DNA of 64,000 nucleotides from Aspidapion aeneum (lineage: Eukaryota; Arthropoda; Insecta; Coleoptera; Brentidae), in the NCBI GenBank assembly GCA_963576565.1, contig OY755045.1:36910667-36974666 (forward strand), in the 5' to 3' direction. The notes beneath the pieces were generated by a model. The model did not search any database. It saw nothing but the letters and a program-made list of their open reading frames with translations, and was not told the DNA's origin. Shown piece after piece: positions 9,003-48,039 of the stretch. Position numbers and translations under genes: made by a program. How positions within the stretch are numbered: position 1 is the first letter of the stretch; each line of letters opens with the position of its first letter.

Positions 9003-9741
9003 TAGGGCATCCAATCCCGCACCGAAACCTCAATCCCGCAAATCCGCGGGATTATAGCCATCAAGCCCGCGGATGCGCTAAATTGCGGGATTACAAAAAA
9101 TAGTAATATTCTTTGTACTCAGCCTACTAAATAAATCTAAGTTTTTATGCAATATAAAACTGAGTATACTAGCAAGAAAATATTTATCACATATAGATAC
9201 AATACAAAATACAATAGTCAGAATAGCATAAAAGATACATTTTACATTGATTTTAAAATTATTTCCGGAGGAAAGATAACTTATCTAATGTGTCATCTTT
9301 TAAACTGGATCTAATTTTATTGCACATTATAACCTGTGGCTGAAAACGCATGCTGAGCTTCGATACTTGTCGGAGTAGTCGACTTACGACAGTTATACGT
9401 AGCTTCCAATTATGCCTCTATTCCCTCCGCATTTAAAAAGGGTCATTTCATATTTAGGTAGCTGGTCAAGTGATGCTTGGGATCGGGCTGGTACAGCCAT
9501 AGGAGAGGACTCTGATACTGATACCCATGCAATGCGAAGGATTCGATCCAATTCCTTTTCTAAATTAGAAGGTCATGGTTCGCGTCTTGTTATCAGATAA
9601 GATAAAGGTGCATTATCCTGCTATATCGAGTCACGGAAATCCCGCGGATCCCGCACGGATAATCCTGCGACGTTGATCCCGCGAAATTCCTGTGCGATGC
9701 CGCATTTGCGGGATCCAGCATTTGCGGGATTACATTGCCTA
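9003..9741 (-). mobile_element. Internally deleted hAT transposon
   Basis: The ends are TAGGGCATCCAATCCCGC and GCGGGATTACATTGCCTA, with the perfect 8-bp duplication GCTACTAC (8995-9002 and 9742-9749). Subterminal regions carry many copies of GCGGGATT/AATCCCGC, typical transposase-binding arrays. The minus strand at about 9240-9600 is a decayed copy of the hAT C-terminal region better preserved at 37484-37936. At 739 bp it is a deletion derivative. It interrupts an open frame that starts at 8738 (reading SFKWTQFGKYLSDSFHRLSN) whose identity is unknown. Confidence 0.9.
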
Positions 9742-14996: not shown

Positions 14997-15339
14997 TAGG
15001 GTATCCAAGTCCCGGGACCAAATATGTTTTCGGGACTTCGGGACCAAATGTCAGTCCCGGGACTGGTCTCGAAACTAAAATAAAAGTAATTGAATTAATT
15101 TAACACAGAACAGAACACAGGTTTATTGATATTGGTAAATGGTTAACATAAAAACAAATTGACAAACGTAGCAAATAAAAAGGTAAGAAACGTGGAATTT
15201 CGTACCCGTGAATTTAAAAATCAAACAAGTTTCGTGGCTAATCGGGCAAAAAGGAGTTTTTTTGTTTCCCTTATATTTTTCCGTGGGTAGCCTGAAAGCT
15301 AAACCTCACGGGGGTCCAAGATCTAATGGACACCTAATA

Positions 15340-15388
15340 AGTGTTGACAGTTAAACGTTTCGTCCTTATGGGACTCCTCAGAACACTG
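15340..15388 (-). ncRNA. Hammerhead ribozyme, type I (array copy 1)
   Basis: The minus strand has CTGAGGA, a stem II of GTCC/GGAC closed by CATAA, GAAA, and the cleavage triplet GTC. AGTGTT pairs with AACACT in stem I. Stem III has a G-to-T change (ACGT before the TTAA loop), leaving only three pairs, so activity may be reduced. Confidence 0.8.
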
Positions 15389-15857
15389 CTGGTCGATGTG
15401 ACAAATCTTGCGAAGTTAATCAGACGGTTTTGTCTCTAATTAAATGTAATTAGTGAGCGAACTATAGCAAGAGGCGCCATCCACCGAGATACGAGAGAAA
15501 CAAAAAACCAAAAGCAGGCGAAAGAAAACACTGCTATACAATATCGATCAATGAAAAGATCGAATGCAAATAAAAGAAAACAACTATAGTCCGTGACCTA
15601 CGACAGCTCTTTGTCTTTCAGGCCGGATCAACACAGATTGCATTTTTACCCGTCTTCAAGACAGTGAGCGTCAATCAACGGAATTTTTAAGCCAAATAAT
15701 ACTAACAAACGTGGAATTTCGACCCGTGAATTTAAAAATCAAACAAGTTTCGTGGCTAATCGGGCAAAAAGGAGTTTTTTTGTTTCCCTTATATTTTTCC
15801 GTGGGTAGCCTGAAAGCTAAACCTCACGGGGGTCCAAGATCTAATGGACACCTAATA

Positions 15858-15905
15858 AGTGTTGACAGTTAACCGTTTCGTCCTTATGGGACTCCTCAGA
15901 ACACT
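15858..15905 (-). ncRNA. Hammerhead ribozyme, type I (array copy 2)
   Basis: All core positions are present on the minus strand: CTGAGGA, stem II GTCC/GGAC, GAAA, a four-pair stem III (ACGG/CTGT with a G-T wobble, loop TTAA), GTC, and stem I AGTGTT/AACACT. It is the last unit before the orientation switch. Confidence 0.9.
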
Positions 15906-16115
15906 GCTGGTCGATGTGACAAATCTATTTATTTGCATTCGATCTTTTCATTGATCGATATTGTATAGCAGTGTTTTCTTTCGCCTGCTTTTGGTTTTTT
16001 TGTTTCTCTCGTATCTCGGTGGATGGCGCCTCTTGCTATAGTTCGCTCACTAATTACATTTAATTAGAGACAAAACCGTCTGATAAACTTCGCAAGATTT
16101 GTCACATCGACCAGC

Positions 16116-16163
16116 AGTGTTCTGAGGAGTCCCATAAGGACGAAACGGTTAACTGTCAACACT
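16116..16163 (+). ncRNA. Hammerhead ribozyme, type I (array copy 3)
   Basis: The + strand has stem I AGTGTT, core CTGAGGA, stem II GTCC-CATAA-GGAC, GAAA, stem III ACGG-TTAA-CTGT, then C, then AACACT. Predicted self-cleavage is after C16157. An outer ACC/GGT helix beyond an internal loop could extend stem I and give the tertiary contact usual in natural hammerheads. Confidence 0.92.
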
Positions 16164-16633
16164 TATTAGGTGTCCATTAGATCTTGGACCCCCGTGAGGT
16201 TTAGCTTTCAGGCTACCCACGGAAAAATATAAGGGAAACAAAAAAACTCCTTTTTGCCCGATTAGCCACGAAACTTGTTTGATTTTTAAATTCACGGGTC
16301 GAAATTCCACGTTTGTTAGTATTATTTGGCTTAAAAATTCCGTTGATTGACGCTCACTGTCTTGAAGACGGGTAAAAATGCAATCTGTGTTGATCCGGCC
16401 TGAAAGACAAAGAGCTGTCGTAGGTCACGGACTATAGTTGTTTTCTTTTATTTGCATTCGATCTTTTCATTGATCGATATTGTATAGCAGTGTTTTCTTT
16501 CGCCTGCTTTTGGTTTTTTGTTTCTCTCGTATCTCGGTGGATGGCGCCTCTTGCTATAGTTCGCTCACTAATTACATTTAATTAGAGACAAAACCGTCTG
16601 ATTAACTTCGCAAGATTTGTCACATCGACCAGC

Positions 16634-16681
16634 AGTGTTCTGAGGAGTCCCATAAGGACGAAACGGTTAACTGTCAACACT
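16634..16681 (+). ncRNA. Hammerhead ribozyme, type I (array copy 4)
   Basis: Same sequence as the copy at 16116 over the core and all three stems. Predicted cleavage is after C16675. It lies 518 bp downstream of the preceding copy. Confidence 0.92.
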
Positions 16682-17153
16682 TATTAGGTGTCCATTAGAT
16701 CTTGGACCCCCGTGAGGTTTAGCTTTCAGGCTACCCACGGAAAAATATAAGGGAAACAAAAAAACTCCTTTTTGCCCGATTAGCCACGAAACTTGTTTGA
16801 TTTTTAAATTCACGGGTACGAAATTCCACGTTTGTTAGTATTATTTGGCTTAAAAATTCCGTTGATTGACGCTCACTGTCTTGAAGACGGGTAAAAATGC
16901 AATCTGTGTTGATCCGGCCTGAAAGACAAAGAGCTGTCGTAGGTCACGGACTATAGTTGTTTTCTTTTATTTGCATTCGATCTTTTCATTGATCGATATT
17001 GTATAGCAGTGTTTTCTTTCGCCTGCTTTTGGTTTTTTTGTTTCTCTCGTATCTCGGTGGATGGCGCCTCTTGCTATAGTTCGCTCACTAATTACATTTA
17101 ATTAGAGACAAAACCGTCTGATTAACTTCGCAAGATTTGTCACATCGACCAGC

Positions 17154-17201
17154 AGTGTTCTGAGGAGTCCCATAAGGACGAAACGGTTAACTGTCAACAC
17201 T
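17154..17201 (+). ncRNA. Hammerhead ribozyme, type I (array copy 5)
   Basis: The core CTGAGGA, stem II, GAAA, stem III and GTC are all intact. Predicted cleavage is after C17195. With the neighbouring sites this would release 520-nt monomers from a read-through transcript. Confidence 0.92.
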
Positions 17202-17673
17202 TATTAGGTGTCCATTAGATCTTGGACCCCCGTGAGGTTTAGCTTTCAAGCTACCCACGGAAAAATATAAGGGAAACAAAAAAACTCCTTTTTGCCCGAT
17301 TAGCCACGAAACTTGTTTGATTTTTAAATTCACGGGTACGAAATTCCACGTTTGTTAGTATTATTTGGCTTAAAAATTCCGTTGATTGACGCTCACTGTC
17401 TTGAAGACGGGTAAAAATGCAATCTGTGTTGATCCGGCCTGAAAGACAAAGAGCTGTCGTAGGTCACGGACAATAGTTGTTTTCTTTTATTTGCATTCGA
17501 TCTTTTCATTGATCGATATTGTATAGCAGTGTTTTCTTTCGCCTGCTTTTGGTTTTTTTGTTTCTCTCGTATCTCGGTGGATGGCGCCTCTTGCTATAGT
17601 TCGCACACTAATTACATTTAATTAGAGACAAAACCGTCTGATTAACTTCGCAAGATTTGTCACATCGACCAGC

Positions 17674-17721
17674 AGTGTTCTGAGGAGTCCCATAAGGACG
17701 AAACGTTTAACTGTCAACACT
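17674..17721 (+). ncRNA. Hammerhead ribozyme, type I (array copy 6)
   Basis: The core is intact and predicted cleavage is after C17715. It carries the same stem III change as copy 1 (ACGT in place of ACGG), so these two outermost copies share a variant. Confidence 0.82.
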
Positions 17722-18044
17722 TATTAGGTGTCCATTAGATCTTGGACCCCCGTGAGGTTTACCTTTCAGGCTACCCACGGAAAAATATAAGGGAAACAAA
17801 AAAACTCCTTTTTGCCCGATTAGCCACGAAACTTGTTTGATTTTTAAAAAGGTAAGTATAGGGAAACATTACTTTTGTCCAAAGTGAGATTTAAGTGCCA
17901 CGAGTGCATTTAACGACTTATCATCTTCACTGCAAGTAAAGAAAGCTTTAAACAGCTTTTGCGATCCTTTCGCGTTCATGCAATAGACGGCGCTGCGTCA
18001 CGCTTTTTTTTTAACCGGTATGCGCATTCGCAAGGAGATCCCTA

Positions 18045-18930
18045 TCACGCTCGAGAAGCGGCAAGTGCGCGGAAATGTTGGTGTGTGTTGGTTTTGAAAC
18101 GGTTCAGGTTGTAACCTGCAGGGAAAACTGTCGCAGGGAGTTTATTCCACAGCGATGCTGTTCTCCAGAGATATGAATTCTGATATAATGAGGTTCTTGG
18201 TGCCTCTATTTTGACAATAAATTGATGGTTACTTTCTGTTTGACGTGTTCGCCTAGTAGGTACTACTCTCGGGGGGATCATACGTGCCAACTCTTCAGAG
18301 CATTTTCCGTGATAATACCTGTAGAAGAGAGATAGATCGCCCACAGTTCTTCGATGTTCGAGACTATCCAAGCTACGGGTAAGTGCGGGGTCATTGATCA
18401 GCTTGATAGCTCGTTTTTGCACGGTGTTCAAAAGCATTAAGGTATGTTTGGGTGCCGAACTCCATATATGTGAGCAGTACTCCATAGTTGGTCGAATCTG
18501 GGCTTTGTAGAGTGTCAGCAGTTGGCTTGGTGTATACAGATGTCTTGTACGAAATAGCACCCCAAGCTTTTGGGACGCCCCTTTAGCTATATCTGCCACG
18601 TGACTGTGCCAAGACATGTTGGTCTCTGCAGTGACTCCTAAGATGTTCAACTGGCTCTGCAATGCGACAGCACTTCCAGATAGCATGACGTTTGGCTCAC
18701 CGGTGCTGGTCTTTTTTGAATACAGGGCTGCTTGGGTTTTCTGCGCGTTGAACTGTACAAGGTTTTTGTTGCCTCAGTCCTCTATTATCTCCAAGTCGTT
18801 ATTTATCTGTGATATTTCAGTTAGTCTAAGCTAATGGAATTCACGTGCGGAGAGACATGTGGGTGGTATGACTGAGGAGACTACATTGCCATCATCTGCA
18901 AAGCAATAAAGTGGATTTACTGTTTATTAT
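18045..18930 (-). pseudogene. Jockey/CR1-type LINE, 3' part
   Basis: A 213-codon open frame (18686 to 18045) with an upstream remnant to about 18930. Motifs in order: LNILGVTAETNMSWHSHV; KAQIRPTMEYCSHIWSSAP; LLNTVQKRAIKLINDPALT; RRTVGDLSLFYRYYHGKCSE; YLWRTASLWNKLPATVFPAG; then the C-terminus ALAASRA. This is the domain after the RT palm/thumb in jockey-superfamily LINEs. The upstream RT and endonuclease are absent (5' truncation), so the insertion is dead on arrival. The clade (CR1, jockey or related) is not settled. It lies inside the hAT at 14997-19064. Confidence 0.8.
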
Positions 18931-21937: not shown

Positions 21938-22641
21938 TTTGCTCCGCCACCCGGATGAGGGTGGTAAACAAAGATCGAAAGTCAAAAGATCGAAAGACAA
22001 AAGATCGAATACAAAAGATCGAAAAACAAAAGATCGAAAAGGCAAAAGATCGAAAATAAAAAAGATCGAAAAACAAAAGATCGAAAGACAAAAGATCGAA
22101 AATACAGAAGAACTAAAAACAAAAAATCGAAAAGGTAAAAGATCGAAAACCAAAAGATCGAAAGTACAAAGATCGAAAGACAAAAGTTTTTTTTTACAAA
22201 GTATGTTAAAAAGAGACCCCATAGTCGAACCGGTTCGATTCGGTTCGGTTTAGTCACAAACCCTCTAGGATCCCGGAAAAAAAATCAGGAAAGTTTTTTT
22301 TTGAAAAAAGTATGTAATAGCGATATTTTGAAATGCGCTATTTTGATACACGCTATTTTGATACGAGCTATTTTAATCTTTTGTCTTTCGATCTTTTGTA
22401 CTTTCGATCTTCTGTACTTTCGATCTTTTGTTTTTCGATCTTTTGTATTTTAGATCTTTTGCATTTTCGATCTTTTGTAGTTTCGATCTTTTGTTTTTCG
22501 ATCTTTTGTGGTTTAGATCTTTTGTCTTTTCGACCATTTGTATTTGGATCTTTTGCCTTTTCGATCTTTTGTTTTTCGATCTTTTGTATTCGATCTTTTG
22601 TCTTTCGATCTTTGTTACTCCACCCATTGGACGAGGAGGTA
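21938..22641. mobile_element. Foldback element with GATC-containing minisatellite arms
   Basis: Two arms of tandem, variable 13-17-bp units of the type AAAAGATCGAAAGAC face each other. The left arm (about 21972-22190) reads AAGATCGAAA and the right arm (about 22376-22618) is its inverse (TTTCGATCTTTTGT). The outer ends are also inverted: TTGCTCCGCCACCCGG... against ...CACCCATTGGACGAGG. The ~180-bp centre (22192-22372) contains GAACCGGTTCGATTC and three repeats of a CTATTTTGATA-type motif. The architecture is that of Drosophila FB-like elements. Open frames through the arms (KDRKTKDRKGKRS) are artefacts. Confidence 0.8.
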
Positions 22642-31116: not shown

Positions 31117-31887
31117 AATGTATTATATACATATACCTAATATTCCAATACCCACTATGCATTTTTCGTACCTTTATTTCTGAATGTTTGGATCGAACGC
31201 CAACCATTGTGGAAATAGGTAACAGGGAGTATTGGAATATTACGTATATGATTATATAACAGTATACCTGTTTTGTAAATTCATTTTGCATTATTAAATT
31301 AGGTATACTACTGTTTGTAGTGATATAATGAAGATAAGTTAATATTTTTCCCACCCATAAAACAAACCAGAGACCCTGAATTTTCTTTTGGTTCTAAAAT
31401 GCTGTAATTTTTTTTTACTAAAACAATCTTTAAGTAATTAATAATTTATAAGTTATGATCTAAGTATTTACAAACACATGCGATATCCTTTTAAATGGTG
31501 TTAAAAAATCCAAAACAATAAAAATGATGATTTCAGTAATTAACTGCGTTTAGAGGAAGTAGTGAAGTACCTATTAGTTGTTAGTCCTTCTAATGTCATT
31601 TTTTTATATATCTTTTTGCCTATCAGTCAAATCTATGCGTGATGTGTGAAGGATATATAATCTTATCTAACAACATTTCAAACAAGCATATATTTACAAA
31701 AAAAAGAGCATCCGTCTACCGTATTATTATAATAGAATATGCGGACTACAAATAATTAATAAAATTATTATAACAATTTTTTGTGGCTAAGCGGGCATAG
31801 AAAGATTTTGTTTCTCTGGTATTTTTCCGTGGGTAGCTCAAAAGCTGTACACCCACGGGGGTGCGCGATATAATGGACACCTATTAA

Positions 31888-33512
31888 GGGCCGGTTTATC
31901 AATGGCGGGGTATCTCATCGTGTTAGCTAGCCCTGGGCCAACTCTAACCTTGGGGTAACCCTCGAGTTAAAGGGAAAAGTGTTTATCCACGCGATTTTAA
32001 CCCAGAGCTCCGAAACTCGCAGGTTGGCAATGCTGGTAACAATCGACCATCTAAGTTTTCCCTTCTTATTTAATAGTCTGTGGAATTTTTGACATTTTGT
32101 GGTTATAATCATATGTCTTTTTGTATTGTTGGTGTCGGGTGTTTTGTTAAAAAATATTATTTGGAAAAACTTATTCAGTTTCTTCAGTTATTGCACTCTA
32201 GCCAGTAAGTATCTACTATATGTATGATGAAAATAATTTAGCTACATAAAAATTAGCATGTAAATAGTTACAACTTTGTAAATTGTTTCTGTTGTACTTA
32301 ACTACTAATTATAGTCTAAAATAAAAATGCATCTATAGGTACCTATCTACCTATTAAAGCTAAATAATTTAAGAGATAAAATAACTTAAAAGCAAATGGA
32401 TTAATATCTTTGGTATTGGATCATATTTCTGCATTTTTTAAGTTTATTTTTAAACTACTACACCTATTTTATTTTTGTTACAGGTTATGCCTTTAAAAGG
32501 AAACCAATAGACTTCTACATTTTAATAAAGAAATATCAATAAGGCACATCAACAAGAAGTAATGGTACTAGTTTCTGAAACATCAACCTGTTATCCCGGA
32601 ATGACTGATTTACAAACACTCCCCTGTAAAGAGCAAGCCGAGGCTTCCTGGGAGACCAGAAAGTGTTTAAAAACCTTGATGTGATATAATATTTATTCTG
32701 TAACATATTTTTTTTAATTATAAAAGTGCTCTAGCATGTTGCAATAATTTAAGTATTTTATTTTGATGTTACGTACAATACATTGTTGTTTATTTCTGAT
32801 TCCTAAAATACTGTTGTATAACAAAAGAACTTAATAGTCATTTTTCAGGGACCGCCAAATAAAAATTTAAAAAACAGTGTTTGAAATATACATTCACTTT
32901 TTATTTTGCATTTTTAAATACATATTAAAAGTTTTAAAATTATATACATAAATTAGTAATTATAATAAAACTGATACACATATTGATGAAGATTCATATG
33001 TGAGTGGGCCTTGCAGCCCTTCCGCTGCGACCGCCAGTGGGTCTATATTGTGGCTCGGTACCTACACATATAAGGTATAGCTCTGTTGGCAGGTAGGATA
33101 TTTATTGGGTGCTTTTCTATTAAACATGATCTTGCTCATAGAAAAAAGAATATTTATTTTGGGTTTGCTTGGTAGACTGCTCCCATTGCAAAAATCTCCA
33201 TGTCTGTGGGAAATTCCATCATCTCAGCCTCACACCATTAAAAGTATCACCGCTGGTGTTTTAAAAATTTCGGAGCATCCTATTTAACACAAAAATTGAA
33301 GTACACAAGTTAAATGTTATGCTTTTGAGAAAAATCAACCAAAATAAAAAAAAAACACTTCAAAATAATTGGAAATTTTCGAGCGCGGGTCATGTTAGCT
33401 TAGGGTTAACCCTCGAGTTTGCATTTAACCTTGGATGGATAAACACTTTTGACAACTTTAACCCAGGGCTATCTCTAACTCGAGGGGTAACCCTCCATTG
33501 ATAAACCGGCCC
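31888..33512. mobile_element. PIF/Harbinger-like non-autonomous element
   Basis: The ends are GGGCCGGTTTATCAATGG and CCATTGATAAACCGGCCC, perfect over 18 bp and with further inverted similarity (CCCTCGAGTTA, CCCTGGG). Likely 3-bp TNA target copies are TAA (31885-31887) and TCA (33513-33515), one base apart. Removing the element restores the family B unit (CCTATTAAGTG). Inside are only coding scraps, such as minus-strand NIDPLAVAAEGLQGPL near 33003-33050. A G-rich GGGCC start with a 3-bp target is typical of PIF/Harbinger. Confidence 0.75.
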
Positions 33513-33516
33513 TCAG

Positions 33517-33560
33517 TGATGACAGTTAACTGTTTCGTCCTTAAGGGACTCTTCAGAGCA
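33517..33560 (-). ncRNA. Decayed hammerhead ribozyme (family B)
   Basis: CTGAAGA, stem II GTCC-CTTAA-GGAC, GAAA and a perfect stem III (ACAG-TTAA-CTGT) with GTC are all present. Stem I is lost: the flanks ATGCT and ATCACT do not pair, partly because of the insertion next to it. Probably inactive. Confidence 0.7.
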
Positions 33561-34007
33561 TGGTCAATATGACACTTTTGTAAACCTATAGAGACGGTAT
33601 ATGAATCTCATCTTACGATATTGGTAAGAGAAATGAATAAATAAGGCCTGCGATACCGTATGGTTTCAAATAAGTGGCGACATCTACAAATACAAAAGAA
33701 ACTACCAGATTAAAAATAAAAGGCAGGCAGATGAAACAAAAAACAGTACCCATGACCGTGAAATAGATTGTTCCTCAGGTCTGATCATTGTATATTGCAT
33801 TTTTTTCGCCTTCGCAACGTTTTATGTCAAGTCAGCGGGGTGTATGTCGAAAATACTACAAACGTAAAGTTTAGTACCCGCGAATAAAGAAAACAACAAT
33901 TTTTCGTGGCTAAGCGGCAAAAAAAGATTTTGTTTCTCTTGTATTTTTCCGTGGGCAGCTCAAAACCTGTACACCCACGGGGGTCCAAAATATATTGGAC
34001 ACCTATT

Positions 34008-34057
34008 AAGTGTGGACAGTTAACTGTTTCGTCCTTAAGGGACTCTTCAGAACATTG
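34008..34057 (-). ncRNA. Hammerhead ribozyme (family B), weakened stem I
   Basis: The core CTGAAGA, stem II GTCC/GGAC (loop CTTAA), GAAA, stem III ACAG/CTGT and GTC are intact. Stem I (AATGTT against CACACT) has mismatches at its first and fifth pairs, so activity is uncertain. Confidence 0.75.
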
Positions 34058-34534
34058 CATGGTCAATGTGACACTTTTGTAAAGCTATAGAGACGGTATA
34101 TGAATCTCATCTTATGATATTGGTAAGAGAAATAAATAAATTATATTTGAGCAAAATGGGCAAATAGACCAAAGGTCAGCATAGGGTATACCTCCACTGC
34201 TCCCCCCCTTTTTTCCCACCGTGGAAATTTTCGACATATATATCTTTTATTGCTATTGGAATCTAGTTTAACGGTTTTACTTATTTGCCACGTATCAATT
34301 ATCAAACCAAATGTTAAAATACTCCCATTTATTAGTGTCACCATGAGCTGAACTGTCCTTTTGTACCAAAATGAAATTACCTTTTTATACCAAAATGCTT
34401 TTTTTGAAAACGACTAAAAAAAATTAAAACCTAAATGGTTTTAATTTGCATTAAAATATCATTAAATAATATAATTAAGATTTACCAAAAAAAGAGTAAA
34501 AAGAGTTCATCATACTCTCTTGGGTTCCTATATA

Positions 34535-37258: not shown

Positions 37259-37936
37259 TAGGGAATCCAATCCCACACCAAAACCTCAATCCCGCAAATC
37301 CGCGGGATTATAGCCCTCAATCCCGCGGATCCGCTAAATTGCCAAAAATAGTAATATTCTTTGTACTCAGCCTACTAAATATGCTAATAAAAGTTTTTAT
37401 GCAATAAAAAACAGAGTATAGTAGCAAGAAAATATTTATCGCATAAAGATAGAATACAAAAAACACTCGGAATAGGTCAAAAGTTACATTTTACATTGAT
37501 TTTGAAAATATTTCCGGAGGAAAGATAACATATCTAATGTGTTATCTTTTAAACTGTATCTAATTTTATTGCACATATAACCTGCGGCTGAAAACGCACG
37601 CTCAGCTTCGACACTTGTCTGAGGAATCGACTTGAGACAGTACGCAGCTCCCAAGTATATGCCCCTATTCCTTCCGCATTCAAAAAGGGTCATTTCATGT
37701 TCAAGTAACTGGTCAAGTGATGCTCGGGATCGGGCTGGTACAGCCATAAGAGAGGACTCTGATACTGGTACCCATGCTGTACGAAGGCTTCGATCTAATT
37801 CCTTTTCTAAATTCAAAGGTGATGGTTCGCATCTTGTTATCAGATAAGATAAAGGTGCATTTAAAGAATAAACCCCCTGGAGGGTCTTTAAATGCTCCCT
37901 AGGAAGTAAATGTTCTCTTAAACTGACGGTTACCAT
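37259..37936 (-). pseudogene. hAT transposase C-terminal region
   Basis: A 150-codon minus-strand frame ends in GAAYCLKSIPQTSVEAERAF, then SAAGYMCNKIRYSLK, then DMLSFLRKYF. This is the hAT C-terminal dimerisation domain (SVEAERAFSxAG...LRxxL) found at the end of hAT transposases. The element end TAGGGAATCCAATCCC is at 37259 with the same subterminal AATCCCGC repeats as the 9003-9741 element, so both come from one family. The opposite end was not found, and the catalytic core upstream is missing, so this copy is a fragment. The flank beyond about 37880 to 38170 contains inverted copies of an ATGCTCCC-type sequence, possibly another insertion. Confidence 0.85.
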
Positions 37937-38169
37937 TGGTCAATATTAGTTATGTGACATAAATTTGGTAGTATTGACATTTTTGGTGAATATTTTCAAG
38001 AATAAATCTCACTTTAAAGTTCTCCTATTGCAAAGCAGGAGAGCAGGTTATGTCAAATGTTCTCTAGAAAATGATCCATTCCGCGTCAGTTTGAAGTCAT
38101 ACACTATAAACTGACAAATGGTAACGGTGAATTGAAGAGAAAATTTACACCCAGGGGAGCATTTACAGA

Positions 38170-41200: not shown

Positions 41201-41807
41201 ATTTATTTATATGGCTGGACACATTTTCACTAGAGTCACTGCGTCCTGGATGCAGTGAGCGTAATTTCCATCCTTCCAAAGAAAATTATTCTTAAAAACG
41301 TGTCCCGATAAGAGTTTTAATAAACGTGTTTTTAAAAGATTTTTCCAGAAAACAATATTCTACAGCACCACCGTTCCAATTAGATTCGCCACTCTGTATA
41401 TGCGGACACAAAAACAAAAAAAAATCGTGCTCCACGAATATAAATGAAAAACAATATCATTTGCTGCCTGTTAACAATATATAAGCGTTTACAAAAAACC
41501 ACGTTTAATTGTTTCAAAGGTATAATTACCTTCAAGAATTTCAAAATAATTATTTTATCTAATGATGATTTAAATGAATGCTAGTTAGATTTCTTACTAA
41601 TAAGATAATTAAAGATAAAAACCTTGGTGTAGGTATCATCTTCTCTTGCATCAGAACTCCGCAAAGATTAAAAAAATTTAATAATTAATAATAATATGCA
41701 CTACCTGAGATATTTTCTGATAGAGATTCCCTTTTGGTTTTGAAAAAGAAGACTGACAAAGAAACGCTCAAGAACCTAATGAATAAAAATACAAAAGAAT
41801 CAAAATC
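41201..41807. other. Unassigned intron DNA
   Basis: No gene is seen. A short segment near 41218-41270 (CACTGCGTCCTGGATGCAGT) resembles one near 51750-51785 and may be a minor repeat. Confidence 0.35.
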
Positions 41808-42090
41808 TTTCTATGCCCGCTTAGCCAAGAAAAATTGTTCTTTTATTCACGGGTACTAAACTTTCAGTTTGTAGTATTTTTGGCTCACACTCCGCTGACT
41901 CGACATAAAACGTTGCGGGTACTGTTTTTTGTTTCATCTGCCTGCCTTTTATTTTTACTCTGGTAGTGTCTTTTGTATTTGTAGATGTCGCCACTTATGT
42001 AAAAAGTATACAGCAGGCATTATTTATTTATTTCTCTTACCAATATCGTAAGATGAGATTCACATACTGTCTCTATAGCTTTATAAAAGT

Positions 42091-42136
42091 GTGTTCTGAA
42101 GAGGCCCTTAAGGACGAAACAGTTAACTGTCAACAC
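42091..42136 (+). ncRNA. Hammerhead ribozyme (family B), stem II mismatch
   Basis: Stem I GTGTT/AACAC, core CTGAAGA, GAAA, perfect stem III ACAG-TTAA-CTGT and GTC are present. Stem II is GGCC/GGAC with one internal mismatch. Predicted cleavage is after C42131, probably slower than family A. Confidence 0.75.
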
Positions 42137-42585
42137 TAAATAGGTGTCCATTAGATCTTGGACCCTCTTGGGTGTACAGCGTTCGAGCTGCCCACGGAAA
42201 AATACAAGAGAAACAAAATCTTTCTATGCCCGCTAGCCACGAAAAATTGTTTTTTTATTCACGGGTACTAAACTTTACGTTTGTAGTATTTTTGGCTCAC
42301 ACTTCGCTGACTCGACATAAAAAGTTGCGAAGGCGGAAAAACATGCTATATGCATTGAGCCGAGCTGAGGTACAAATTATGTCACGGTCATGGGTACTGT
42401 TTTTCGTTTCATCTGCCTGCCTTTTATTTTTACTCTGGTAGTTTCTTTTATATTTGTAGATGTCGCGACTTATGTGACAGCATACGGTATCGCAGGCATT
42501 ATTTATTTATTTTTCTTTCCAATATCGTAAGAAGAGATTCATATAGCGGCTCTATAGCTTTACAAAAGTGTCACATTGACCATGC

Positions 42586-42632
42586 AGTGTTTTGAAGAGT
42601 TCCGTAAGGACGAAATAGCTAACTGTCAACAC
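42586..42632 (+). ncRNA. Decayed hammerhead ribozyme (family B)
   Basis: The catalytic CTGA has become TTGA, and stems II and III carry changes (GTTCC/GGAC, ATAG/CTGT). AGTGTT/AACACT of stem I is retained. Probably inactive. Confidence 0.65.
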
Positions 42633-43861
42633 TTAATAGGTGTCCATTAGATCATTAGATCTTGTAACCCCGTGAGTGTACACCGTGTTCCATTTTCGAT
42701 GGGATTAAATGGGAACCTCGGTTATTATTAATGAAATCGATTTTCTGATTGCACCTTACCATGTTCTTTTTTTGAGCCGTTAAAAATGGTGTAATCAGAT
42801 TTTTGCTATACTCCGTGGTTTCGCTAATACAGGGAGTTTTTTAATAAAGTGCATTTTTATTAATTCCTTGCACCTCCCTTATTTTGCAAGATATTTTTAT
42901 TCTGTAAAAACTTGTCTATGAAAACTTTTTTAGAGCAAAATAATGACGTTGTCCATTTTTTAAAATATTGTTTAGTTTTTGAGATATGGTATTTATCATG
43001 AAAAAATTACAAACGGACCTGGATTTTTTTTATTACTATTTTGATTGGTTCCATGCTATTATTATCTTAAAATGATAAAACTTTAATATTTTTTTTTTGA
43101 TTTAAGTTTAAAAAGAACTATTTAATATTTAAAAAAAATAAATTAGTACAAACCTGGAAATTTCCAACGTAATTATAAATTAAAAATTGCAAGACACGCT
43201 AGTTGAACGATTTTTAAATTATCTGTTTTGAAACGTTGATTAAAAGATTTATAAATAAAGAAAAAAACGTTAAAAAGTTACAAATATAATATTATAGTAA
43301 TTATTTGATGGTAGCACAGCAACTCATAAAATTTACTTCAACATGGAAAAAGAAAAGCGTGGAATTGACATTGTCATTTTACTTGTCATATTTGTGAATG
43401 GCTCACTCACAATTATTCTAAAATGGCTAAAAATCGACCATATCTAGATTTTGAAAAATGTGATTTGACTGCTTTATCAAGCAACAAAATCCCAATATTT
43501 AAACGGCAGAAATATTTTTATGCAAAATGCGTTAAGAAAAATTGCTCAAAAATGTTAACTATGTTTTACATAATGGCAATCAGTTTGAACATTTATATCA
43601 TTAAAGAAAAATTAGTTATTATTTTTTGTAATTCGTTATTTTTTTTGTATTTTTCATAGACTTTGTTTCAAATACACCTGTAAATTAACGTAAAACCATT
43701 TTAATTTGTTAAGTATCAAAACAGTTAAACTAAAAATCGTTTAACTAGCAATTTTTAATTTATGTTTATTATGGAAATTTCCGGGTTCGGACTAAATTTT
43801 TGTTTGAAATAAATTTTTTTTTTTACCTTAAAACAATTTTTTTGTAATTTTTATTATTATT

Positions 43862-46800
43862 ACGGGTACGGGTAGACCTCGTCAGATGTCTATCAGGGGA
43901 AATGAATCGACCCCTGCCCTCCGTAGATTCCAGGTACTCTTCGACCCGGAGAGTTAGCACCTGTATGGGGTCCCTTTCCCAGGGTTACGGGAGAAGACCA
44001 CATCGATATGAAAGGCGGAGAGAATGGACCTCGGTACGGTGATCATAGCGTAGGTGGCAACCCTTTCTTTTAGGGATAGTATAAAAGACTACTGCCTTGT
44101 AGTACCGGCGTTGGAATCGTCAAAGGCTAGGGGAAGAAAACCTCGATCAAAAATCACCTGGTCCTCCAGGTTGGGGGTTGGGGCATCAGACTAACTCTCT
44201 GATACCCGGAAAAAACGTACACTGTTAAAAAACCCAATCAAACGCCTCGGAAAGAAATGAAAAACCTAAGACGCACCAAGCAAAGAAACAGGAATATGAT
44301 TTTTGGTACATGGAACGTACAAGGAATGAATCGAAAAATGAATGAAATAGTACATGAGTGCAGCAGAATGAAGGTAGACCTTGCTGTACTAACAGAAACG
44401 AAAAAGAAAGGAAAAGGATCTGAAAACCTAGGACAATATGACCATTTCTATAGCGGAGTGGCAAAAGAAAAACATGCCCAACAAGGAGTATCTATTTTGG
44501 TCAACAAAAGATTTAGAAAATTTATCACCAACTGGGAAGCAGTCAATGAAAGGCTAATTAAAATGAATATAACAATAAAAGGAATGAGACTTACGATTTT
44601 TGGAATCTATGCGTATAACGACGATGCAAATGTAGCCGTGAAAGACAATTTTTTTGAAGAAATACACAATGAAATATCAGCAGTAAGTGCATCTAGAGAA
44701 ATTGTCATATTGGGAGATTTAAATAGTAGAACCGGTAACAGAGTTAATGATCTGACAGTTGGCCAATATGGAGAAAATCTTGTTAATGACAATGGAAACC
44801 GGCTAATTACAGTATGTGAGCAATTAAACCTAAAAATCCAAAACGGTTTTTTTCAACATAAGGAAATACACAAATATACCTGGACCAAACCCTCACAAAA
44901 CCTGAAATCCGTCATTGATTATCTTATCACTAAACAAAAGACAAAACTAAAAATTCAAGATGTCAGAACAAAGCGTGGATCAACATGCGGAAGTGATCAC
45001 TATTTTCTGGAGTCCAAAATTCTCTTTCCTTATCAAGGCCGAAGCCTGCATCAACAACATCTTGATGATACAGTCATTGAAGAAATTGATCACTGTAAAT
45101 ATAATTTACTAAGCCTAGAACATGACAGCGTAAAAAACTTATACAAAAAGAGACTGAACGAAAAACTTAATACAAGTTCAGGTGAAACCCCAGATGAGGA
45201 ATACGAATGTATTACATTAAGCATCCACCAAGCTGCAAAAGAAGCACTAGGATTAGTGGAAGAAACTTCTAAAAGAAGAAAACCATACTGGTGGGATGCT
45301 GAGATTGAGAGAGAAATAGAGGAAAAAAGGAAATTATATCACACCTACTTATCCCAAAAGACAGATAGAAGCAGACAAGAATACAAAATCGCGCAATCAA
45401 AGGTGAGAAGAATGATCAGTGATAAGAAAAATCATTCGTGGACGCAAAAATGTCAGAAAATAGATTCTTACTTAGGAGGTAGGAGAAGTACCGAAAGCTG
45501 GAAAACTATAAGATCGATTAAAAAAGAAACATGCAGAGATATCATTTCACCAATACCAGACAAAGAATGGGATGAGCATTTTAAAAAACTTTTAACTGAA
45601 GATAGAGCAGAATTCAAGGAAGACGCAAGAGACAATATAATTAGAACGATGGGATCTCCAGTACCCCTCACAATCTCTGAGGTCAAAAACGTGTGCACAA
45701 CCTTAAAAAGCGGTAAATCTGCCGGACCCGGAAATATCCCAGCCGAACTTATTAAATATGGCACTGAAGAACTGTTTTGGAGATTACGGAATCTTTTCCA
45801 AAAATATTTAAATGGAACTGTAGTCCCAACTGAGTGGAAAACGTCATATATATCCACAATACACAAAAAAGGAAGGAAAGATATATGTGACAATTATAGA
45901 GGTATATCTGTGACTAGTACGCTAAGCAGAATATACGGTAAAATAATAAGAAATAAAGTAGAGAGCGAATATAAAGACATGGAGGCAGAAGAACAAGCTG
46001 GTTTCAGGGCGGGTAGATCGACTTCAGATCATCTCTTTTGTATAACCCAAGTTATTGAAAAGAAAATGGCATACGGTCAAGAGCTGCATCTGCTTTACGT
46101 GGATTTGCAGAAGGCATATGATAGTATACCACTAAATCTACTTTGGAAAGCGTTGGAAAACACAAACATAAGCGTACAACTAATTAAGGCCATCCAAGAG
46201 TTATACCGCAATAGTAAGGCAAAAGTTAAAATAAAAGCAAAACTAACCAAAGGCTTTCAAGTAAATAAAGGTCTTAAACAAGGTTGCTGTATCTCGCCTA
46301 CGCTCTTCAAGATATACTTGGAACAAGTCCTTAAAGTATGGAAGAGAAAATGCCAAAACATGGGAATTCCGTTGGACGAAACCACCTTGTATACTTTATG
46401 TTTCGCCGATGATCAGATAGTAGTGGCTCAGGATTATGACGACCTCGAATATATGACACGAAAACTAATAGAAGAGTACAATAAGTGGGGACTAGAGGTT
46501 AATCTCAATAAGACAGAGTATATGTGTATCGGTGGAATGAAACAGGATCTAATCTTAAATACCGGGCAGCGAATTCACTCCTGTGATGAGTATAAATACT
46601 TAGGTCTAAAAATTACAGCTGACGGAACACTAGACAAAGCTATAAAAGATCGAAACGTACAAGGAAGAAAAGCAATAACTTTATTAAATGGAATAATTTG
46701 GGACCAAAGTATATCAAAACATAACAAAAAGCTTATATATAACACCATTATAAAAAGTATTATTACATACGGCTCAGAAGTATGGCCAATCAAGGATAGA

Positions 46801-47190
46801 ACAGAAAAAATGCTTTCCGCTACGGAGATGGACTATTGGAGAAGAGCAGCAGGGAAATCAAAAAGAGAAAGAGTTACAAATCAAAGAATAAGAGAAATTA
46901 TGACAGTAGGTGAACGTACTTTAGTGGATGATATAAGAACAAAACAACTGGTGTGGTACGGACATGTACAAAGAATGAATGACGAAAGACTACCTAAACA
47001 AATACTACAATGGAAACCAACTGGCCGAAGAAAACGAGGACGGCCAAGGAGAAGCTGGAGAGAAGGAATAGACAGTGAAATAAGAATAAGAGGCCTAGAT
47101 GATGAATTATGGGCAAACAGAAACGAGTGGAGATTGGGTATCGGAAGACGTAGAACGTTGTGAAACCGATAAATATATATATATATATAT
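43862..47190 (+). mobile_element. Full-length RTE non-LTR retrotransposon
   Basis: A ~400-bp GC-richer 5' leader begins about 43862 (ACGGGTACGGGTAGACCTCG), followed by one intact ORF (44257-47163). The 3' end has almost no UTR and terminates in a (TA)n run (47170-47190), as RTE elements commonly end in short simple repeats. It is inserted in the mariner-type element at 42681. No clear target duplication was found. The intact frame indicates recent arrival. Confidence 0.85.
44257..47163 (+). CDS. RTE polyprotein: endonuclease and reverse transcriptase
   Basis: A 968-residue single protein, close to the usual ~1000 residues of RTE elements. Residues ~10-250 form an APE-type endonuclease: GTWNVQGMN, LTETKK, ILGDLNSRTG and the final SDH (CGSDHYFLE) carry the catalytic residues. 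After a linker, residues ~450-760 form the reverse transcriptase: GKSAGPGNIPAELIK, NYRGISVTSTLSRIYGKII, EEQAGFRAGRSTSDHLFCI, YVDLQKAYDSIP (first catalytic Asp), LKQGCCISPTLFKIYLE, CFADDQIV (the Asp pair) and KWGLEVNLNKTEYM. The C-terminus is basic (PTGRRKRGRPRRSWREGID). It nicks genomic DNA and copies its RNA at the nick. No stop or frameshift is seen, so it may be active. The methionine at 44257 begins the frame right before FGTWNVQGM. The broken copies at 3010, 11303 and 25890 are relatives. Confidence 0.93.
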   Translation: MKNLRRTKQRNRNMIFGTWNVQGMNRKMNEIVHECSRMKVDLAVLTETKKKGKGSENLGQYDHFYSGVAKEKHAQQGVSILVNKRFRKFITNWEAVNERLIKMNITIKGMRLTIFGIYAYNDDANVAVKDNFFEEIHNEISAVSASREIVILGDLNSRTGNRVNDLTVGQYGENLVNDNGNRLITVCEQLNLKIQNGFFQHKEIHKYTWTKPSQNLKSVIDYLITKQKTKLKIQDVRTKRGSTCGSDHYFLESKILFPYQGRSLHQQHLDDTVIEEIDHCKYNLLSLEHDSVKNLYKKRLNEKLNTSSGETPDEEYECITLSIHQAAKEALGLVEETSKRRKPYWWDAEIEREIEEKRKLYHTYLSQKTDRSRQEYKIAQSKVRRMISDKKNHSWTQKCQKIDSYLGGRRSTESWKTIRSIKKETCRDIISPIPDKEWDEHFKKLLTEDRAEFKEDARDNIIRTMGSPVPLTISEVKNVCTTLKSGKSAGPGNIPAELIKYGTEELFWRLRNLFQKYLNGTVVPTEWKTSYISTIHKKGRKDICDNYRGISVTSTLSRIYGKIIRNKVESEYKDMEAEEQAGFRAGRSTSDHLFCITQVIEKKMAYGQELHLLYVDLQKAYDSIPLNLLWKALENTNISVQLIKAIQELYRNSKAKVKIKAKLTKGFQVNKGLKQGCCISPTLFKIYLEQVLKVWKRKCQNMGIPLDETTLYTLCFADDQIVVAQDYDDLEYMTRKLIEEYNKWGLEVNLNKTEYMCIGGMKQDLILNTGQRIHSCDEYKYLGLKITADGTLDKAIKDRNVQGRKAITLLNGIIWDQSISKHNKKLIYNTIIKSIITYGSEVWPIKDRTEKMLSATEMDYWRRAAGKSKRERVTNQRIREIMTVGERTLVDDIRTKQLVWYGHVQRMNDERLPKQILQWKPTGRRKRGRPRRSWREGIDSEIRIRGLDDELWANRNEWRLGIGRRRTL

Positions 47191-47528
47191 ATTATTTGGT
47201 GATAATAATAGCATGAAACCATTCAAAATAGTAATAAAAAAATCCAGGCCCGTATTTAATTTTTTTATGATAAATAAAAAAATTACAACGTCATGATTTT
47301 CTTCTAAGAAGATTGCCATAAAAAGATTTTTACAGAATAAACATATCTCGCAAATAAGCGAAATATAAAGGATTATTAAAAATGCAATTTTTTCAAAAAC
47401 TCCCTGTATTAGCGAAACTACGGGGTATAGCAAAAATCTGATCACGCCATTTGTAAGGGCTCAAAAAAAGAGCACGGTAACGTGCAATCATTTCCCATTT
47501 AATTCCATCGAAAATGGGACACGCTGTA

Positions 47529-47640
47529 CAGCTTTCAAGCTGCTTACGGAAAAATACTAGAAAAAATCTGTCTATGCCCGCTAAGCCACGAAACATTGTT
47601 GTTTTTTTATTCACGGGTACTGAACTTTACGTTTCTAATG
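47529..47640 (+). repeat. Distal part of the interrupted family B hammerhead unit
   Basis: Resumes with CAGCTTTCAAGCTGCTTACG and continues through CGCTAAGCCACGAAACATTG and TTATTCACGGGTACTGAACT, the same order as at 42178-42290. It ends before the next ribozyme, so the array stops here. Confidence 0.8.
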
Positions 47641-48039
47641 AATCTATGCCAAATTTCCTCTTGAGATCCCCCGTCGCCCATACCCTACATATAATAACAA
47701 AACTTTCTTAAACCTAATTCCTCAATCACTATAGACCCAGCTTAAGCAATTTAATTCGAAGCATTAATAAGTTATAGTCATCAAATCCTCATACCTAAAA
47801 AACCTTATCAAAGAAGATTCCATTCCAGTCAAACTTACAGCTGGTAAAAAAGAAAGCTCCTCTAACAAAAAATGAAGACTATTAAAAAGACCCTTAAGTA
47901 ATCCGGAGAAATCTCTTCCATACAATGGAGACTAGCGTTCATGTAGCGACTATAGACTTCTCAGTTAGGTGCACTTCCAGATCGATACCCAATGCCTGTC
48001 ACAAAAGACGTTACAAAGGCCACAAGAAATACAGTCCTC

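Follow-up and report, generated by a model that had tools for sequence, protein, structure and literature searches.

Among animals, tandem repeats with a type I hammerhead are known from the satellites of Schistosoma and newts, whose units, compared by description, are shorter than the one considered here. This unit, 520 nt in its reference copy, lies in a stretch of 64,000 nt (referred to below as the window) from the beetle Aspidapion aeneum (GenBank assembly GCA_963576565.1, contig OY755045.1, positions 36,910,667 to 36,974,666 of the forward strand). The newt hammerhead satellite has a unit of ~330 bp (PMC7229834). In the accessible text of the same source, metazoan retrozymes without long terminal repeats (non-LTR retrozymes) are defined, insects are mentioned, and circular RNA (circRNA) templates are proposed (Cervera and de la Pena 2020, PMC7229834); the units are summarised as 150-450 bp, and circles of 150 to >1000 nt appear in its discussion. 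Penelope-like elements (PLEs) are regarded there as a strong candidate partner, based on type I hammerheads in both kinds of element, tandem copies and co-existence. The accessible parts of two other papers repeat that retrozymes may rely on PLEs (PMC8969392, PMC11722881), and the retrozyme-PLE link is already proposed in print. According to the available portion of a 2020 review, metazoan retrozymes have no conserved motif that reveals their transposition partner (PMC7761336). Our analysis indicates that the beetle element is probably a non-coding metazoan retrozyme inserted by PLE-type machinery. The element belongs to a known kind, and its two-ended, head-to-head anatomy and the match of this anatomy to a PLE are the new part.

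The PLEs provide the second point of comparison. As far as the accessible text goes, canonical PLEs are defined by the pairing of a reverse transcriptase (RT) with a GIY-YIG endonuclease, and the purified Anolis PLE cuts and extends both target strands, with reverse transcription starting inside the RNA at 111-118 into the open reading frame (ORF) and the hammerhead cut at 26 (PMC11167929). The optional 30-40 bp 'tail' of genomic PLE copies corresponds to the stretch between two start sites (PMC11167929). In the rotifer Adineta vaga, Penelope copies have inverted pseudo-LTRs (pLTRs), a 31-bp tail on one of them and 8-10 bp duplications; they are most often head-to-head, and self-priming was considered by the authors (PMC3846280, accessible part).

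In the window, the hammerhead block is a head-to-head insertion in which two arrays stand back to back. The left arm (15188-15926, minus strand) contains 1.4 hammerhead units and the right arm (15928-17848, plus strand) 3.7 units, and one base (15927) that belongs to neither arm lies at the junction (15926-15928). The sense 3' end of the left arm is a 'long' end (...CCACGTTT, unit position 158), and the right arm stops at a 'short' end (...CTTGTTTGATTTTT, unit position ~125-133). Both outer borders carry the exact 12-bp repeat TAAAAAGGTAAG (15176-15187 and 17845-17856), the two copies of a target-site duplication; the first 4 nt of the right copy overlap unit sequence, and these last 4 nt of the right arm may be part of the duplication. 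A match of at least 11 bp within 3 bases of the borders was obtained for only 10 of 20000 random boundary pairs. The full units measure 518, 520 and 520 nt on the plus strand and 518 nt on the minus strand and are 98.8-99.8% identical, in line with the spacing of 518-520 bp and the near identity reported in the initial annotation. The single array described there has to be revised: its six motifs do lie in one block, but two are on the minus strand (from 15340 and 15858) and four on the plus strand (from 16116 onward), in head-to-head order. That annotation lacked the informative features, namely this order of the arms, the 12-bp duplication and the fixed positions of both 3' ends. The left arm is the reverse complement of the 739 nt that start at 16095, with one mismatch. 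The reference unit, which runs from hammerhead cut to hammerhead cut (16676-17195, plus strand), has a G+C content of 40% and is non-coding, the longest open frame being 52 aa in the sense and 70 aa in the antisense direction. The block is a recently inserted non-coding mobile element.

Each unit carries a predicted type I hammerhead motif, and self-cutting is predicted from it. On the minus strand, the motifs are at 15340-15387 (predicted cut between 15346 and 15345) and 15858-15905 (between 15864 and 15863); those on the plus strand are at 16116-16163 (16157 and 16158), 16634-16681 (16675 and 16676), 17154-17201 (17195 and 17196) and 17674-17721 (17715 and 17716). As initially stated, all six retain CTGAGGA, GAAA and GTC together with stem II (GTCC/GGAC) and stem I (AGTGTT/AACACT). 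A structural descriptor that combines the core with paired stems (5 bp in stem I, 4 bp in stem II, 3 bp in stem III) matched exactly these six in the window and nothing in 100 dinucleotide shuffles. Beyond an internal loop, ACAUC/GGUGU prolongs stem I outward. In four of the six copies, stem III consists of four pairs capped by UUAA, and it is shorter in the two with a G to T change (15340-15387 and 17674-17721); its strand is nearly palindromic (CGGTTAACTG, or CAGTTAACTG in an older family described below). No match was found by hammerhead-pattern searches of viral and prokaryotic collections.

To place the block in a genomic context, the 1.286 Gb assembly (149 contigs) was searched with the unit, which gave at least 247 matches, the best 39 of 1075 candidate places having been scored. 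The matches listed were grouped into 39 loci, namely the window block and 38 others; since these are the best matches, the sample is biased to young copies. A common flank occurs in three pairs of loci (L015/L016, L023/L027 and L040/L044). Among the full units, 95 of 119 have the core, stem II and the 3' strand of stem I intact. The substitution density of these 119 young units is 0.68% in the hammerhead, 0.78% in the next 148 nt and 0.61% in the rest, an evenness that gives no sign of post-insertion selection in young copies. The unit arrays are short and dispersed over at least 10 contigs. This distribution, with its defined ends and target duplications, leaves hardly any credence for ordinary satellite DNA that was spread by unequal exchange and contains a hammerhead incidentally, even though ~500-bp tandem hammerhead units do form satellites in cave crickets (PMC2837043, accessible part). 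The satellite in question, pDo500 of Dolichopoda, is, like the beetle unit, an insect repeat of ~500 bp in which every unit has one hammerhead, a comparison by description only, and differs in being satellite DNA that makes up ~5% of one genome (PMC2837043).

The layout of the window block recurs throughout the sample. Units on both strands are present in 29 of the 39 loci, and all 29 are head-to-head, with minus units on the left and plus units on the right (one locus, L031, has an additional small inversion); the strand rule joins pieces at most 60 nt apart, farther pieces such as those of L037 being excluded. Outer 3' ends were typed by the end of the alignment, as short (121-139) or long (155-172), ranges that allow for chance matches that make alignments overshoot. 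By this measure, 68 outer ends comprise 32 short, 25 long and 11 elsewhere, and typing by end motif produced an identical table. Base-by-base reading shows mostly ...AACTTGTTTGA and ...TTCCACGTTT at the ends, which places them ~125 and ~158 nt beyond the cut. Wherever both ends could be typed (19 loci), one is short and the other long, never two alike; 13 of these loci are long-left and 6 short-left, and no two of them have a common flank. The inner 5' junctions are scattered over the unit (68 positions, 1-474), and the arms of these 19 loci range from 122 to 3643 nt.

These ends bear on two other ways of moving such an element. A long interspersed nuclear element (LINE) could have mobilised the retrozyme via target-primed reverse transcription, with inversions arising from twin priming; LINE-type RT genes are present in the window, and LINE insertions are known to yield inverted 5' parts. 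Twin priming, however, leaves the outer end of the inverted arm at any internal position, whereas here both outer ends fall at two constant sites, one of each in 19 of 19 loci. Moreover, the ends read lack an evident poly(A) tail, only L042 ending in a simple repeat, and this origin is considered improbable. Even less probable is a fold-back DNA transposon with long inverted ends made of tandem units and moved by a transposase (compare Drosophila Tetris). Tandem arrays that stand head to head within a short target duplication do resemble such elements, but the ends are not mirror images (short versus long site), the arm lengths vary freely with junctions anywhere in the unit, and most units have an intact hammerhead. 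In addition, 5'-truncated single-strand copies can have a border repeat (15 bp in L041, and 9 bp at an older array of the window, 41785-47634). For the window block itself, a fold-back of the right arm by self-priming was also considered as the origin of the left arm, on the basis of two private 1-nt deletions common to one minus and one plus unit; this is less likely because the two-site rule holds across 19 loci.

Among the 19 loci with two typed ends, an exact duplication of 12-15 bp was found at the borders of 17, and the remaining two have 18 bp inside a microsatellite (L042) and 10 bp (L025). In a control with mismatched flanks, no repeat of 12 bp or more occurred in 300 pairs, and one of 11 bp occurred in 2 of 300.

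The variants within the arrays are informative about the template of each insertion. In 11 of the 27 loci with at least two full units, a variant is present in every full unit of the locus and in no other locus; when locus labels were shuffled, a mean of 0.038 and a maximum of 1 locus had such private variants. Sixteen loci have full units in both arms. In 8 of them a private variant runs through every full unit on either side, and in 13 the two arms resemble each other more than arms of different loci do. The averages over all loci lie close together (5.9 between arms, 6.3 within an arm and 7.1 between loci), a small gap that may be attributed to later mutations in older copies. The longest arms, at 3.6 kb, are seven times the length of the 520-nt monomer. 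Locus-private variants and long arms are explained by a monomer circle or a very uniform multimer, and the private variants of both arms favour one small, probably circular, template. The copying from a concatemer, as in retrozymes, that the initial annotation had suggested gains support from the non-coding, repeated and dispersed unit, the target duplications and the locus-private variants in all full units.

Comparison with the described metazoan retrozymes shows both agreement and difference. As far as the accessible text of PMC7229834 goes, the two have in common a type I hammerhead in each unit, the absence of coding sequence, a low G+C content, tandem units and target duplications of >4 bp. 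The unit sizes of 518-520 nt, and of 494-496 nt in the older family, exceed the summarised range of 150-450 bp and fall within that of the circles (150 to >1000 nt). Tandem repeats are described there, whereas the beetle copies mostly stand head to head and have two fixed 3' ends. No account of retrozyme arrays in head-to-head order, or of 3' ends at fixed sites, was found in the literature within reach, which excluded supplements and most subscription papers.

The genome also contains PLEs with which the insertion anatomy can be compared. At least 91 GIY-YIG endonuclease matches were recorded (best 150 of 633 candidates scored), and at L047 a single ORF combines RVT_1 and GIY-YIG domains. This PLE (L047 and L049) is inserted head to head, and each of its arms carries a minimal hammerhead, CTGAAGA-stem II-GAAAC-GTC; one arm ends 98 nt and the other 59 nt beyond the cut, and the flanking repeat is 11-13 bp. 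Eight other copies of the family were read at one 3' end each: three end at 59-62 nt and four at 93-98 nt, and one (L053) does not match. The distance between the two 3' ends is thus ~36 nt in the PLE and ~33 nt in the retrozyme, and the layout is the same. No hammerhead was found in the 1.6 kb read at two other GIY-YIG matches, L051 and L052. As a separate observation, the PLE family at L047 (1082-5001, with L049) looks recent, because the copies compared are 96-99% alike and several GIY-YIG matches score equally.

It is the match of the two fixed ends, the ~12-base duplication and the head-to-head anatomy to this PLE of the same genome that points to PLE-type machinery, and the element likewise has the head-to-head copies, the 'tail' at one 3' end and the short duplication by which a PLE-like mode of insertion can be recognised. 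The published biochemistry and anatomy, in their accessible parts, agree with this reading: initiation is internal, past the hammerhead, and both strands are extended (PMC11167929), and inverted pLTRs, a tail and duplications are described (PMC3846280). Set beside the hammerhead PLEs of Anolis (PAc, PMC11167929) and A. vaga (PMC3846280), the beetle element has a similar putative internal start past the hammerhead, two putative starts ~30-40 nt apart, head-to-head inverted copies and short duplications (8-10 bp there, 12-15 bp and exact here). Unlike the unit, which encodes nothing and whose stem III has ~4 pairs, these PLEs encode an RT and a GIY-YIG endonuclease and have minimal hammerheads. 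Since the unit has no frame over 70 aa, it is itself no autonomous PLE. The arrays might instead be solo pLTR concatemers of an unseen autonomous PLE with the same 520-nt unit, which would make the retrozyme a deletion derivative of one PLE family. PLEs do insert as tandem or inverted pLTR arrays (PMC3846280, PMC11167929, accessible parts), and GIY-YIG genes abound in this genome in the numbers given above; nevertheless, the unit lacks coding sequence, and by its stem III the retrozyme hammerhead differs from the minimal one of the PLE read (few PLE families being readable). This origin is therefore judged unlikely, if less so than those by a LINE or a DNA transposon.

A number of observations weigh against a retrozyme inserted by PLE-type machinery from one small template. 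In terms of layout, 10 of the 39 loci have units on one strand only, and among these a border repeat of more than 8 bp is present only in L041 (15 bp, including element bases); ten further loci have one end elsewhere. With regard to the template, the arms of L027, L029 and L040 (3 of 16) are no more alike than different loci, and some variants occur in only part of the units of one locus, given which the picture of the template is not clean. The two deletions common to both arms of the window block suit a multi-unit template or copying between arms. The hammerhead fold of an 83-nt piece has -12.7 kcal/mol against -18.1 kcal/mol for the minimum-energy fold, so that activity may need co-transcriptional folding or dimers. 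The covariance-model search that the initial annotation had named as a check fell short as well: Rfam Hammerhead_1 matches with 24.4-24.7 bits (E 0.0058-0.0075 over all families), under the gathering cut-off of 34, and nothing passes that threshold anywhere in the window; the gathering score is a curation threshold and no defining property of a type I hammerhead. As for the PLE, only a single copy was read at both ends and for its head-to-head layout, no likeness in primary sequence is apparent between its ends and those of the retrozyme, and no PLE with the 160-nt module of the retrozyme (the hammerhead and the sequence after it) was found among the few PLEs readable. Finally, in the accessible account of the Anolis PLE in vitro, hammerhead cleavage was unneeded, unprocessed RNA was the dominant substrate, and start sites were alike on both strands (PMC11167929); this behaviour therefore predicts neither a circle nor a strict pairing of short and long ends.

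A cycle can be proposed in which transcripts of an array would cut themselves at every hammerhead, and the resulting 520-nt monomer would probably be closed into a circle. The RT/GIY-YIG endonuclease of a PLE, the presumed enzyme source, would cut both strands of the target ~12 bp apart, and each target strand would then prime cDNA at one of two fixed internal sites, ~125 or ~158 nt past the cut; internal initiation of this kind, beyond the hammerhead, is suggested by the ends of the element. Both polymerases would make several rounds of the template, growth of the two arms could stop at any point, the arms would be joined head to head, and gap repair would yield the duplication of 12-13 bp.

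Two older, broken relatives of the element were detected outside the block by comparing the unit with the window. The first, on the minus strand, consists of a 3' part (31771-31888, unit positions 5-124) that ends near the 'short' site and of the rest of the array (33515-34147), with hammerhead motifs at 33521-33556 and 34015-34050; no target duplication was found at its borders (31771-34147), the best match being 3 bp. The second is a 5'-truncated direct array on the plus strand (41785-42688), with a hammerhead at 42096-42131 and a mutated one at ~42592-42627, and its 3' end (47521-47634, ...ACGTTT) is at the 'long' site. It is flanked by a target-site duplication, CTAATGAAT (41776-41784 and 47635-47643); a match of at least 9 bases was obtained for 24 of 20000 random boundary pairs. 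Both arrays were later split by inserts with inverted ends, and the unit phase runs on across each. Identity within versus between the older arrays is 92.9 versus 90.0% in one and 81.0 versus 85.7% in the other. In alignment columns counted from the cut, the younger unit and two older ones (494-496 nt) are 65-88% identical over columns 1-120, 68-70% over 121-160, 22-62% over 161-440, 68% over 441-480 and 72-78% over 481-520; in this alignment the older C unit is cut 9 nt short. The better-kept part is therefore the hammerhead with roughly the first 160 nt; covariation in this 160-nt module is weak, with two-sided change in 1 of 19 pairs (5 sequences). Copies in 33527-34077 also match Rfam Hammerhead_3 (23.9 and 27.7 bits, below the cut-off); these matches run through a GTC located upstream and a hairpin formed locally by stem I, which may amount to a second way for the same RNA to fold.

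With a query from the older subfamily (window 33852-34100), 3697 candidate places were counted in the genome against 1075 for the young unit, the query lengths being different and only 40 and 39 places, respectively, having been scored. The insert in the older minus array (31889-33514) has inverted ends, GGGCCGGTTTATCAATGG, and a possible 3-bp target duplication. That in the plus array (42689-47520) has inverted ends of ~330 bp that are 77% alike (42746-43077 versus 47190-47490) and holds a LINE-type frame of 986 codons (44203-47163) with endonuclease and RT domains, whose closest relatives among those listed are unnamed proteins, ~63% identical, the named ones being from arthropods. Elsewhere in the window, a minus-strand frame of 242 aa (18045-18773) lies ~190 bp from the hammerhead array; it has no Pfam match, and its sequence resembles the end of a jockey-type LINE. 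Two minisatellites with 15-16 bp units (21966-22186 and 22376-22613), ~190 bp apart, seem to be approximate reverse complements (AAAGATCGAAAGACA and ATCTTTTGTATTTTCG). A dispersed repeat is present at 9003-9614 and 37259-37861 (87% identical), its second copy being overlapped by a minus-strand frame (37484-37939) that includes a hAT dimerisation domain.

The insertion anatomy described here (arms joined head to head, 3' ends at two fixed sites, duplications of ~12 bp) provides a mark of the transposition partner of a retrozyme. The question of that partner becomes testable, either with a PLE protein and the 520-nt RNA in vitro or by end counts in retrozyme-bearing genomes. The integration of PLEs themselves is also concerned, since arms of several units with a 3' end on either side suggest that synthesis proceeds from both target strands. 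More tentatively, and with chances slightly short of even, animal retrozymes may parasitise PLEs in a specific manner, in which one RNA circle is engaged by a pair of PLE enzymes, each strand has its own fixed site, and two rolling polymerases produce arms that are fused. If so, the strict pairing of short and long ends would be a direct footprint of an integration complex with two polymerases on one template.

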